Made by a program: the position numbers and the translations under genes
Shown here: piece by piece, positions 6,019-24,767 of the stretch
How positions within the stretch are numbered: position 1 is the stretch's first letter
Layout of the letters: every line of letters begins with the position of its first letter
Source: a virus
DNA: 30,739 nt
Direction: 5' to 3' (one strand)
Virus record (IMG/VR): IMGVR_UViG_3300046011_001297
Location: 1 to 30,739 of that record
Notes under the pieces: generated by a model
The model's input: the letters and a program-made list of their open reading frames with translations, nothing else
What the model was told of the DNA's origin: nothing
The model's database searches: none

Positions 6019-10642
<4,624 letters not shown>

Positions 10643-16848: not shown

Positions 16849-17505
16849 TCAGAAGGGCAGGTCGTCGTCCATGTCATCAAAGCCGCTAGAAGGGGCTTTA
16901 ACGGCGTTTTGAGCGGGTTTCTTGCCTTGGAGAGCTTGCCACTCAGGGGAAGCCTCAATCATCGCCTTGAGCCCCTTACCAAAGGTGTCGTACAGCTCGT
17001 AGTCAGGCTCAGCCAAACGGAACACTTGGTTAGGGTTGATGGCTGGGGGTAGACCAGCGGACTTGATGACCGAAGGAACAGGGGCAACGCCCTTGACGTT
17101 GGAGTACATCTTGCCGTTTTTCCCCGGTCTCGGAATCACCGTCAACATGCACCAAGCACCAAGGATCGTGGAGATGTCAAACCGACGCATCTCCGCCTCT
17201 GTGAAGGGCTTGTTACGCCAGTTCTGTAGGTCGATCCGAAGGTTAGCCTTCTCTGACCAACTCAGCGTGTAGTTCTTAAAGATCGCTAGGGGGTCGCCAC
17301 GCTCTGTGACGAGCTCTTCACCTTCGTCATCTTTGCCATGGAGCTCCCAACCAAGCATGATCTTGCGTTGGTGCTTCTCTTGACCCTCGTACTCAGAACG
17401 CTGGGTTCCCAAGTCAATGATGCGGTAGCAACGTGCAAGGTGAAGACCTGCGGGTACTGCTTTGAAGTCGCCAATCGGCGCTGTGTTTTCTACGATAAAA
17501 CTCAT
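16849..17505 (-). CDS. SSB-like protein with acidic DDDLPF tail
   Basis: This 218-residue protein begins with a beta-rich domain (APIGDFKAVPAGLHLARCYR, MLGWELHGKDDEG), has a Lys/Arg/aromatic-rich central part (WSEKANLRIDLQNWRNKPF) and ends in a flexible Ala/Pro/Ser linker and FDDMDDDLPF. The last residues copy the C-terminal tip of bacterial SSB (DDDIPF), the docking site for host replication and repair proteins. The role is therefore most likely ssDNA binding in phage replication or recombination, as in gp2.5-like proteins. It overlaps the upstream small gene by three bases (17502-17504 with 17503-17505) and is two bases before the winged-helix gene. The fold assignment is inference; the tail is seen directly. 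Confidence 0.78.
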   Translation of the reverse strand: MSFIVENTAPIGDFKAVPAGLHLARCYRIIDLGTQRSEYEGQEKHQRKIMLGWELHGKDDEGEELVTERGDPLAIFKNYTLSWSEKANLRIDLQNWRNKPFTEAEMRRFDISTILGAWCMLTVIPRPGKNGKMYSNVKGVAPVPSVIKSAGLPPAINPNQVFRLAEPDYELYDTFGKGLKAMIEASPEWQALQGKKPAQNAVKAPSSGFDDMDDDLPF

Positions 17506-17884: not shown

Positions 17885-17976
17885 TAGGGTCTCCAGATAA
17901 AAATGTCGTATAGGGAAATGGCAAAACCAACTACAAACACAATGATGTAGAGGCGCTCGAAGTCTTTGTCGTTCAT
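17884..17976 (-). CDS. 30-residue single-TM protein
   Basis: MNDKDFERLYIIVFVVGFAI then SLYDIFIWRP: a charged N-terminus and one TM helix. Its start overlaps the alpha-CTD gene stop by four bases (ATGA) and its stop shares one base with the next start, so it is perfectly stitched into the operon. Function unknown; possibly an inhibitor at the host membrane. Confidence 0.58.
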   Translation of the reverse strand: MNDKDFERLYIIVFVVGFAISLYDIFIWRP

Positions 17977-18347
17977 GCTTGCCCCCTTAACTTCAATCCA
18001 CGTGCATCTAATTGCTCAATAATTTCTCTAAGGCTTTTGCGTCCCAAATTAGGTACCCTAAGCAAGCCAATATCAGAGTATGTGAGCAGTTGCGTTATGG
18101 TGTAAATGCCCTCAGCTTTTAAACAGTGCTCAGACCGTACAGTCAATTCAAGTTTTTCAATGCCATCTTCAACAATTGCATCCTTCAATGCCCAATTGTC
18201 TAAAACCGTTTGCCTGCATTCCAACATTTTTTCTGCAATTCCATAAGCGCGTAGTGCTACGTTATGCACAGCAACCATACCCTCTTGACGTTGAATTGCC
18301 TTCATTGCCTCAATTGCAAATTGGTCAAGTAATTGTTCTTTGTTCAT
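17973..18347 (-). CDS. free-standing RNA polymerase alpha C-terminal domain homologue
   Basis: Residues 63-121 of this 124-residue protein align closely with the C-terminal domain of bacterial RpoA. IEKLELTVRSEHCLKAEG is followed by LLRVPNLGRKSLREI. Counterparts of the E. coli DNA-contact residues are present: R71 (R265), G102 (G296), K104 (K298), S105 (S299) and E108 (E302); N268 is replaced by H74. The N-terminal 60 residues are helical and unlike RpoA, so no assembly domain is present. In the host, alpha CTD binds AT-rich UP elements and activators. A free phage copy could occupy UP elements, compete with host alpha, or act as a promoter-specific adaptor. RBS AAGGA precedes the ATG. It overlaps both neighbours by four bases. 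Confidence 0.88.
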   Translation of the reverse strand: MNKEQLLDQFAIEAMKAIQRQEGMVAVHNVALRAYGIAEKMLECRQTVLDNWALKDAIVEDGIEKLELTVRSEHCLKAEGIYTITQLLTYSDIGLLRVPNLGRKSLREIIEQLDARGLKLRGQA

Positions 18348-18664
18348 TGGAAATCCTTACATGAATGATGCTTGGCATCTTCTGAGTTATGCCATTTGCC
18401 TTGACAACCAGTGCATTTAAATTGTTTGGTTTTGATGGTGATGGTTTTGCCTCTTAACTCCTTGATGGCGTTCGAGGCAAAGTGGTAATAGTTGTGAGCG
18501 CCATTGTTACTTTGGGCTTCATGTAACCCCATGAGTAAATCAATACACGCGCTACGTTCGGCAGACGCAACAAGGTTGGCAAAATGTTCTAAACCTTCTG
18601 TAAAGATTGGCTTGCCAATCAATCCTGCCTCTTGCGCCATACAAATAATGTCTTCTCTGGTCAT
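18344..18664 (-). CDS. small phage protein with C-terminal zinc-finger-like motif
   Basis: 106 residues. The N-terminus (MTREDIICMAQEAGL) is one I recall from many phage accessory proteins. The central part is helical. The C-terminus has C84-x2-C87 and then H99, H100 and C102 (FKCTGCQGKWHNSEDAKHHS), a likely zinc-binding knuckle. It overlaps the alpha-CTD gene by four bases and starts one base after the preceding stop. A DNA- or RNA-binding role is possible but not shown. Confidence 0.68.
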   Translation of the reverse strand: MTREDIICMAQEAGLIGKPIFTEGLEHFANLVASAERSACIDLLMGLHEAQSNNGAHNYYHFASNAIKELRGKTITIKTKQFKCTGCQGKWHNSEDAKHHSCKDFQ

Positions 18665-18665
18665 C

Positions 18666-18884
18666 TCAGACCCCTAACGCAACCAAGGTTGAAACGAGCA
18701 CTGCCAGAAAGATGATGTACGCAACCCAGCCAGCAATGCGGCGCTGAGAGAACTCAGGCTCAATGCCAAGCAATGCCATTTGCAGAAGCTCTGCATCAGC
18801 ACTCATGTAATTGCGTTGGGGAGGGGTGTAGTTGCACCCAATTTGAAGACCAGACTTGGTCGTGTAGGGAAGTTGTTTTTCCAA
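18666..18884 (-). CDS. first gene of minus operon, C-terminal TM anchor, TTG start
   Basis: The best start is TTG at 18884, because AAGGAGAATCAA stands directly before it. The ATG at 18806 has no comparable RBS, and longer forms would run through the promoter and leader stem-loop. The 72-residue product has a polar N-terminus and one C-terminal TM helix (GWVAYIIFLAVLVSTLVALG). It is the first protein made from the minus early promoter. A rare start codon may set low expression. Function unknown. Confidence 0.6.
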   Translation of the reverse strand: MEKQLPYTTKSGLQIGCNYTPPQRNYMSADAELLQMALLGIEPEFSQRRIAGWVAYIIFLAVLVSTLVALGV

Positions 18885-18949: not shown

Positions 18950-19020
18950 TACATTCCCGAGTGAAACGTAGGGGTATCTTTAATTTAAAGTTAATGTATA
19001 CTTGCCGCCAAGGAAGAACA
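18926..19020 (+). promoter_or_regulatory. divergent control region with rightward promoter
   Basis: This 95-base AT-rich gap separates the leftward and rightward early operons. On the plus strand, 18979-18997 (TTTAATTTAAAGTTAATGT) matches the 26241-26259 promoter core at 15 of 19 positions. The overlapping TATACT at 18997-19002 is an alternative -10. TAGGGGTATC at 18969-18978 lies midway between the two -10 boxes and resembles motifs upstream of the other early promoters. It may be an operator for the Cro-like protein coded immediately to the right. Confidence 0.5.
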
Positions 19021-19227
19021 ATGATGACATTGCAAGAGTACTTTTCGACGGAGCCGTTGGGCGCAAGAGGTGAGATGGCAGAGTATCTGGGCATTAGCTT
19101 GACATGGATGTCTTTGTTGATTCACGAGCGCAGAACTGCGTCTGCCGCGTTGGCGGTTAAGATTGAAAAAGCAACACAAGGTTTGGTCACAAGAAAAGAC
19201 TTGCGTCCAGATTTGTTTTTCGTGTAA
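19021..19227 (+). CDS. Cro/YdaS-like helix-turn-helix regulator
   Basis: 68 residues (start MMTLQEYFST; RBS AAGGAAG six bases upstream). Helix-turn-helix: GEMAEYLGISLTWMSLLIHE, then RRTASAALAVKIEKAT. The end VTRKDLRPDLFF is typical of the YdaS/Cro group. It lies in the divergent control region and should repress one or both early promoters. No CI-type partner or integrase is visible in the window, so it may be a stand-alone early/late switch rather than part of a lysogeny system. Confidence 0.82.
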   Translation: MMTLQEYFSTEPLGARGEMAEYLGISLTWMSLLIHERRTASAALAVKIEKATQGLVTRKDLRPDLFFV

Positions 19228-22782: not shown

Positions 22783-22834
22783 ATAAAAATATTTATAAAA
22801 AGACTTCTAAACCGTTTTAACTTCATGTTAAGAT
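22783..22834 (+). promoter_or_regulatory. early promoter with UP element
   Basis: The extended -10 TGTTAAGAT ends at 22834, and the shared 23-base core (22812-22834, CCGTTTTAAC...) differs at one position from that at 26237-26259. Upstream, 22783-22804 matches the UP-element consensus (nnAAAWWTWTTTTnnnAAAnnn) with a single mismatch. If transcription starts at 22842, it lies exactly at -59 to -38. There is no good -35. This region (22772-22876) has no gene. Confidence 0.72.
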
Positions 22835-22842
22835 CCCAATCA

Positions 22843-22855
22843 CTGCAATAAGCAG
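22843..22855 (+). promoter_or_regulatory. 5'-terminal leader stem-loop
   Basis: 4-bp stem CTGC/GCAG with a 5-base loop, beginning at about +2 of the predicted transcript. It is followed by GTTACCTGAAAGAC, which is nearly repeated after the stem-loop at 26266-26280. Confidence 0.5.
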
Positions 22856-22876
22856 GTTACCTGAAAGACAAACATC

Positions 22877-23419: not shown

Positions 23420-23737
23420 ATGAGAAAAATTCAATACCAAGCCTATTGGTTTGACACGGATCACACCATAGGGGACAAGGGGCAGTTCCCCGGCGGGAAC
23501 CAGCGCAGGGTGCAAGTTGATGGCAAGACCGTCGGCTTCCTGCGTGTCACCAAAGAAGGGTGGGGGCAAAGCGAAAAGAAGCGTGGCACCCCCTCGCAGA
23601 TCTGGAAGTTTGAGCCAGTCAGAACTTCTGACATTGGTGTGTTGATTGCACAGAAAATGCCTTCATACACTGACTACTTTGCAGATGCTAAAAAAGTCAT
23701 TGCGTCTGTTGTGAATGATCAATATGAAATTCATTGA
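23420..23737 (+). CDS. small basic protein of unknown function
   Basis: 105 residues, rich in Lys, Gly and aromatic residues (AYWFDTDHTIGDKGQFPGGN, then QRRVQVDGKTVGFLRVTKEG) with a beta-like character. Its 3' end overlaps the methyltransferase start by 14 bases in another frame. The start lies in the motif TGAAGACAGCATCATGA, shared with the genes at 22877 and 26742. Function unknown; possibly linked to the modification cassette. Confidence 0.6.
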   Translation: MRKIQYQAYWFDTDHTIGDKGQFPGGNQRRVQVDGKTVGFLRVTKEGWGQSEKKRGTPSQIWKFEPVRTSDIGVLIAQKMPSYTDYFADAKKVIASVVNDQYEIH

Positions 23738-24767
23738 ATTATTTGCAGGCATTGGTGGGTTCCGCCTTGGATTAGAAAAGGCGGGTCACGATTGCGTGTG
23801 GGCTAACGAATTTATACCTAAAGCGGCAAGCATCTATGAGCACAACTTCAAACACAAACCCGACGGACGAGACATACGAGGAATTCACATTGATGAAATC
23901 CCCAGCGCCGACCTACTCGTTGGAGGATTTCCATGCGCAACTTTCAGCGTTGCTGGAAGACGAACAGGATTCGGGACAGAGGATACACGCGGTACTCTCT
24001 TTTTTGAGATCTGTCGCATTGCCTCTGGTAAGCGAATCCCATATCTATTCCTTGAGAATGTTAAGGGACTCCTCAATCACGACGGAGGACGAACCTTTGG
24101 AATTATCATCGCAAGTCTGGATGAACTGGGGTATGACGTCCAATGGGAGTGTCTTAACAGCAAGAATTTCGGAGTCCCACAGAATCGGGAACGAGTCTTT
24201 ATTGTCGCAAGTCTTAGAGGACACCCCAGACCCCAAGTATTTCCTCTCGGAAGATGTTATGCAGAAAATAGCGTTCAACACCGAGGTGAACAAGATCAAG
24301 AACCGCGGGTTCGGAGCGAAGGTGGTCTCACTATCGGAACACTCTGTCACAGACTTTACAAGGGAGACACTAACAACTTCTACCTTGCTGGACAAGTACG
24401 AGGACAAATTGAACAACTTGAGGACGCTACAGCAGGAGGAGAAGACGGCACCACCGAACCAAATGGATCTGTTCGGGCAGTCCTGACACCAGCCAAAGAA
24501 AAGAAGCGCCAGCGTGGTCGCCGAATGAAGGAACACAACGAACCTGCATTCACCCTTACAGCTCAAGACAGGCACGGGTTAATGGTTGGATCACAGCTCA
24601 GAAGATTCACACCGTTAGAGTGCGAGCGTTTGCAGTCGCTACCTGATGATTGGACGCGCTGGTTTGCAGACGGATCAGAGGTTCCTGACACACACAGGTA
24701 CGAGCGCTGTGGTCGTGCTGTTACGGTCAACGTCATATACGAAATTGCCAAGAGGTTACCAGCATGA
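23724..24767 (+). CDS. C5-cytosine DNA methyltransferase
   Basis: 347 residues from the ATG at 23724 (MKFIELFAGIGGF); an ATG three codons upstream is possible. Conserved blocks are in order: motif I FAGIGG (7-12), motif IV GGFPC with the catalytic C71, motif VI ENV (111-113), motif VIII QNRER (153-157), the late block RRFTPLECERLQSLPDDW, and motif X near GRAVTVNVIYEI. All catalytic motifs lie in one frame. The variable target-recognition region (about 175-265) is Gly/Glu-rich and unusual. It methylates cytosine in phage DNA, probably to resist host restriction; no partner restriction enzyme is visible. It overlaps the PP-loop gene by four bases. Confidence 0.93.
   Translation: MKFIELFAGIGGFRLGLEKAGHDCVWANEFIPKAASIYEHNFKHKPDGRDIRGIHIDEIPSADLLVGGFPCATFSVAGRRTGFGTEDTRGTLFFEICRIASGKRIPYLFLENVKGLLNHDGGRTFGIIIASLDELGYDVQWECLNSKNFGVPQNRERVFIVASLRGHPRPQVFPLGRCYAENSVQHRGEQDQEPRVRSEGGLTIGTLCHRLYKGDTNNFYLAGQVRGQIEQLEDATAGGEDGTTEPNGSVRAVLTPAKEKKRQRGRRMKEHNEPAFTLTAQDRHGLMVGSQLRRFTPLECERLQSLPDDWTRWFADGSEVPDTHRYERCGRAVTVNVIYEIAKRLPA
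23836..24486 (+). CDS. 216-codon ORF nested out of frame in the methyltransferase gene
   Basis: This reading frame lies wholly inside the methyltransferase gene, shifted by one base, with 216 codons and no stop. Its second half looks protein-like. SLLSQVLEDTPDPKYFLSED matches an LSxVLE...KYFLS pattern I recall from phage proteins associated with C5 methyltransferases and from some methyltransferases after motif VIII. The end (KYEDKLNNLRTLQQEEK...PPNQMDLFGQS) looks like a true C-terminus. No clear RBS precedes the ATG. It could be a real overlapping gene, a recognition segment reachable by frameshift, or a chance shadow. Confidence 0.35.
   Translation: MSTTSNTNPTDETYEEFTLMKSPAPTYSLEDFHAQLSALLEDEQDSGQRIHAVLSFLRSVALPLVSESHIYSLRMLRDSSITTEDEPLELSSQVWMNWGMTSNGSVLTARISESHRIGNESLLSQVLEDTPDPKYFLSEDVMQKIAFNTEVNKIKNRGFGAKVVSLSEHSVTDFTRETLTTSTLLDKYEDKLNNLRTLQQEEKTAPPNQMDLFGQS

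Follow-up and report, generated by a model that had tools for sequence, protein, structure and literature searches.

We find that a small phage protein unites a genuine C-terminal domain of the RNA polymerase alpha subunit (αCTD) with a two-helix hairpin that is otherwise a widespread phage mini-protein, and that the two parts have probably been joined at least three times. The protein is encoded on the minus strand of a 30,739-base virus record from IMG/VR (the window). Its family preserves the face by which αCTD touches DNA, and has let the faces for sigma and CRP drift. The reading that we prefer, at just short of an even chance, is that the protein would bind in the minor groove, with the hairpin for dimerisation or for contact with a partner, and would shift initiation at UP-type promoters (for UP elements, see PMC4390567); DNA binding as such we consider likely.

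The αCTD that a preliminary description of this DNA had proposed is borne out by three lines of evidence. The Pfam model RNA_pol_A_CTD (PF03118) scores the protein at 67.3 bits against a cut-off of 23.8, and in a sequence search of the PDB all significant matches were alpha subunits (best 4e-13, over residues about 56–120). The AlphaFold model (mean pLDDT 90.6) superimposes in Foldseek on E. coli αCTD with an rmsd of 0.4 Å over 60 columns at 52% identity, and the best 50 matches in the PDB are all RNA polymerase alpha chains or complexes, which goes beyond a generic helix-hairpin-helix match. With pTM values of 0.67 and 0.57, the models do not fix the orientation of the hairpin relative to the CTD. 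The alpha N-terminal assembly and dimerisation domain is absent from the protein, again as described: models of complete RpoA match essentially over the CTD part and reach 44–64 bits against cut-offs of 228–523. Along the domain, identity to E. coli is about 51% and rises to 54% for the best match, Comamonas, and the best CTD matches suggest a host group in the beta-proteobacteria (Burkholderiales).

Table 1. Positions of the features discussed (window coordinates).
Feature	Position	Strand	Remarks
Hairpin-αCTD open reading frame	17973..18347	-	124 aa, ATG start; much lower dN than dS in comparisons with relatives
αCTD, residues 59-114	18006..18173	-	Pfam PF03118, E=9.9e-19; Foldseek match to E. 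coli αCTD
Two-helix hairpin (helices 3-21 and 27-61)	18165..18341	-	AlphaFold; residues 6-45 homologous to stand-alone phage mini-proteins
Shine-Dalgarno AAGGA	18354..18358	-	A few bases 5' of the hairpin-αCTD ATG; read from the sequence
Upstream gene, 106 aa	18344..18664	-	Stop overlaps the start of the αCTD gene (ATGA, 18344-18347)
Two-gene block (106-aa gene and αCTD gene)	17972..18668	-	1 difference in 697 sites against contig G001
UP-element-like A/T tract	22785..22801	+	1 mismatch to AAAWWTWTTTTNNNAAA (core of the UP consensus); candidate target only

The plus strand opposite the gene is full of stops and thus closed. Because of the ATGA stop/start overlap, the hairpin-αCTD gene is probably translationally coupled to the gene upstream of it, for whose product searches of Pfam and PHROG returned zero matches. 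Near-identity of this block to contig G001, between flanks of 75–90% identity, marks the two genes, on sequence comparison, as a recently exchanged cassette that moved as a pair. They belong to a leftward operon. Facing it are a YdaS-like regulator and a DUF1376 replication gene, and it continues with a winged-helix-like protein and a PD-(D/E)XK exonuclease; from this position we infer that the hairpin-αCTD gene is expressed early. The YdaS-like gene itself (18961–19227) probably starts near 19020 and not at 18961, because relatives carry insertions of ~95 and ~430 bases between 19002 and 19024. Elsewhere in the window, very long TG/GT-rich repeats (9250–10100) code for long Gly-Thr runs in a 1453-aa tail-region ORF and are accompanied by mirror ORFs on the opposite strand, and a C5-cytosine methylase gene (23715–24767; Pfam E=3e-79) contains a 216-aa open frame (23836–24486) on the same strand in another frame.

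The N-terminal part, which had been taken to be new, turned out to be a module of wide distribution. Its motif, GMTLRDYFAAKAMQ...AYxxADAMLxAR, recurs in small separate proteins of the same phages. An HMM of the N-terminal half matches such proteins at E-values of 2e-9 and weaker, and an HMM built from the stand-alone proteins only finds an identical copy of the window protein (L089) at E=6e-8 over residues 6–45, along with many relatives from the window family at 1e-12 to 1e-7; used alone as a query, the window protein gives a weak match to phrog_20565 (E=0.036). By tblastn the module is present in 68 isolate-phage records, mostly as ‘hypothetical protein’ among the matches listed, and the phages that carry it are those of Pseudomonas, Burkholderia, Acidovorax and enterobacteria. 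The stand-alone proteins belong to phrog_2201, phrog_20565 and phrog_37111, labelled in PHROG as of unknown function, and relatives of the hairpin weakly match phrog_30599 (E=9e-6), whose label, transcriptional regulator, supports a role in transcription. In MW202544.1 an unannotated stand-alone hairpin gene (16880–17065; L195) lies between erf and an exonuclease gene. Because this is the slot that hairpin-αCTD genes fill in many relatives, the fusion would most simply have arisen by addition of αCTD to a resident hairpin gene. The stand-alone LRDYFAAKAM hairpin shares the two-helix motif with the window protein but has no αCTD, whereas the window protein does not begin with the GMT motif, and its second helix (residues 27–61 in the AlphaFold model) is the longer one.

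How often the two parts have met was assessed from CTD-based scans, which are not biased towards the hairpin. These yielded 84 distinct proteins, with a hairpin in 32, a sigma-70 region 4 in 16, and other or short sequences in the rest. Three topologies of hairpin and αCTD were found: (i) in the window family the hairpin is N-terminal to αCTD; (ii) in L136 (144 aa) αCTD comes first and the hairpin is C-terminal (HMM match at residues 90–142); (iii) in L139, L140, L149 and L150 (153 aa) αCTD is inserted between both hairpin helices, such that HMM positions 1–40 fall at residues 5–46 and positions 43–61 at residues 134–152. Pfam confirms αCTD in the proteins of alternative topology. Since a single fusion event would not easily give rise to permuted and nested arrangements, the parts were probably joined at least three times, and this repeated joining argues for a functional coupling between them. 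The argument rests on topology, the CTD tree (62 columns) being too poorly resolved for a firm count of captures; in this weak tree, the CTD of the nested proteins falls with RpoA of proteobacteria, and the sigma-4 fusions fall with CTDs of the Firmicutes type. A broader proposal, namely that small regulators were built at least three separate times from a captured host αCTD and a ubiquitous phage hairpin, where the hairpin would function as partner to either polymerase or UP-element DNA, appears plausible to us, if on balance somewhat doubtful.

The fusions of αCTD to sigma-70 region 4 (L170, L171, L173, L174, L178, L179, L181, L182, L186, L190, L191 and L114; also L169 and L192–L194) place αCTDs of other phages in transcription proteins. 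Pfam confirms PF04545 together with PF03118 in three of them, with region 4 at E=2e-18, and some carry an extra Cro-type HTH. Such proteins unite two promoter-reading domains that are neighbours on UP/-35 DNA. A further protein from a phage contig, L159 (153 aa), retains, before its CTD, what is left of an alpha dimerisation domain, a short piece (PF01193, E=3e-4, below the cut-off) and is perhaps an intermediate of capture from rpoA.

A profile scan of viral contigs recovered the two-part protein of the window family from 57 contigs, to which a CTD-only scan added about eleven with a like N-terminus, and two scans of 85,000 bacterial and archaeal species genomes gave no confirmed relative. 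Identifiable matches in isolate-phage records had other architectures or were cellular rpoA, and those annotated rpoA or encoding a whole RpoA (L068) were left out of the relatives. Identities within the family come in grades of 80–100% (same slot, close phages), 48–60% and about 35%. PF03118 matches each of the 37 aligned members, and for the divergent branch, too, AlphaFold gives a hairpin and an αCTD (pLDDT 86.4).

The company that these genes keep raises the possibility that αCTD is a generic double-stranded DNA binder aiding an annealing protein and an exonuclease, transcription not being involved. A YqaJ exonuclease gene lies near 31 of the 57 loci, the order annealing protein (Erf or Sak), hairpin-αCTD, YqaJ exonuclease recurs in about 25 relatives, the stand-alone hairpin gene of MW202544 has a comparable setting, and αCTD-like domains do occur outside polymerase, for example in PglW of BREX (PMC12839542). 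At L023, L038, L041, L048 and L062, however, the gene is found among unrelated small genes. Neighbourhood is a weak guide here, lambda-type leftward operons holding many unrelated functions, and the sigma region 4 fusions point to transcription, so that we regard an accessory role in recombination as unlikely. Rather unlikely, too, is the converse view that the hairpin is the active part, for instance an inhibitor of a host protein, and that αCTD serves solely to bring it to DNA or to polymerase engaged in transcription. The hairpin, alone in so many phages and joined to αCTD in three ways, is indeed the common denominator, but no function is assigned to it in any member, and αCTD keeps a constraint of its own.

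This constraint lies on the DNA face, whose preservation had been proposed at the outset. In E. coli numbering, the window protein retains R265, C269, N294, G296, K298, S299 and E302, with A267 replaced by E and N268 by H; the residues R265, G296, K298, S299 and E302 and the two substitutions had all been read correctly. Within the DNA-contact set R265/N268/N294/G296/K298/S299/E302, N268 to H is the only change, which agrees with the preliminary description for the window protein itself but is too narrow a statement for the family. Across its members R265, N294 and G296 are invariant and position 298 is K or R, whereas position 268 varies among R, H, N and S, with the E. coli N replaced in most; position 299 is S or G (G in the divergent branch), and E302 is kept only in the nearer half and lost from the divergent branch. 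Over the DNA-contact positions scored (265, 268, 269, 294, 296, 298, 299 and 302) mean entropy was 0.62, where the domain as a whole has 1.33 (permutation P=0.006), with the caution that positions 293–296 also form the helix-hairpin-helix turn, so that their conservation is perhaps partly structural and R265 is the most telling residue.

The protein-contact faces bear on another possibility, that of a decoy, in which the free αCTD would titrate CRP-like activators or sigma region 4 off polymerase. By its fold this is the domain on which activators dock, and the window protein retains E261, but the determinants at 261 (sigma) and 287 (CRP) are among the less conserved parts of the domain, no better than average (entropy 1.87 and 1.69; P=0.90 and 0.83), and in the window protein the sigma-contact residue D259 is K, with SDIG in the place of E. 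coli T285-E286-V287-E288, changes that the preliminary description had not mentioned. Because the 287 and 261 surfaces are unconserved, activator binding is disfavoured relative to plain DNA binding, and we hold a decoy to be quite improbable; a conserved DNA face combined with drifting sigma and CRP faces is more in keeping with a DNA binder than with a complete mimic of alpha.

Both halves of the protein are under purifying selection: in a codon comparison of the window protein with L012, dN and dS were 0.021 and 0.32 for the CTD and 0.10 and 0.42 for the N-terminus, and between L017 and L018 they were 0 and 0.18 for the CTD. These values contradict the idea of a recently captured, decaying and functionless fragment of host rpoA, which we rejected as hardly credible in spite of the resemblance of the CTD to beta/gammaproteobacterial alpha (Comamonas), the family being deep, with a common N-terminus, and the gene having a Shine-Dalgarno sequence and coupling to its neighbour.

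For the preferred reading, action at UP-type promoters, we envisage that the αCTD of the free-standing protein would grip the minor groove of A/T-rich (UP-like) DNA by residues that host alpha uses (R265, N294, G296 and K298), and that the hairpin would dimerise the protein or tie it to a partner protein. As an early product of the leftward operon, the protein would occupy or bridge UP-type sites and thereby change the promoters that host polymerase favours; the net effect, at a guess, may be repression, through masking of host or early UP elements, or activation. The identity of the domain, the low entropy of its DNA contacts, purifying selection, the joining of hairpin and αCTD in three topologies, and a near-consensus UP-like tract of which the A/T character is kept in three relatives all support this reading. 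Against it count that most members have H, R or S where E. coli has the DNA contact N268, that S299 and E302 are lost from the divergent branch, and that about half of the relatives are located between recombination genes, where another role would fit.

The tract in question, which is UP-like, lies within an element (22783–22804) that had been named at the outset for DNA-binding assays. The generally known UP consensus and promoter geometry were used for it; it is A/T-rich in three relatives, although the sequence of one is mostly different, and a conserved TTAAGAT lies downstream. UP-like sites at 2 mismatches were not in excess (5 found compared to 2.0 expected; 12 of 100 shuffles gave as many), and at 3 mismatches there were 42 compared to 18.8, many of which overlap at a few A/T tracts. 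As A/T tracts are common, the element may be unrelated to the hairpin-αCTD protein. After the putative -10, a conserved stretch (22829–22870) with the palindrome CAGGTTACCTG is nearly intact in three relatives and is a possible operator or leader element.

With RpoA the window protein has in common the αCTD fold (PF03118), a sequence identity of 51–54% (E. coli, Comamonas) and the main DNA-contact residues; it differs in having no assembly domain, no flexible linker and not the last RpoA residues, in its fusion to a phage hairpin and, family-wide, in unconserved sigma and activator surfaces and a replaced N268. Akin to it, proteins of Bacillus phage Goe8 and Erythrobacter phage vB_EliS-L02 (ORF40) have αCTD without a complete alpha subunit, although in most such proteins the partner domains are different; A0A6J5MNY7 (128 aa) matches the window protein over its whole length. 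Phage αCTD proteins are already named automatically in UniProt, as well as in a few genome papers (PMC9127768), and the open-access literature searched yielded no functional study of them. Interference at or near αCTD is also known from T4, whose Alt and ModA ADP-ribosylate R265 of alpha, so that phages act on this very surface (PMC2988021), and from phiKMV-like phages, whose Rac cleaves alpha (PMC7552054). Alt, ModA and Rac are enzymes that modify host alpha, whereas the window protein reproduces the domain. The new findings are which module partners αCTD, that the two have been joined recurrently, and that the DNA surface is conserved where the protein-contact surfaces are not.

If the protein binds UP-type DNA, the phage would be using the very domain by which host polymerase reads promoters, either against that enzyme or in concert with it, and this route of takeover would be distinct from sigma appropriation, alpha modification and alpha cleavage. 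The recurrent pairing also opens a first way into what the hairpin protein does, and both αCTD and hairpin proteins are small, soluble and easily assayed. If the hairpin does act as a partner of polymerase or UP-element DNA, a role would follow for the stand-alone hairpin genes, too, of which dozens are at present annotated as hypothetical.
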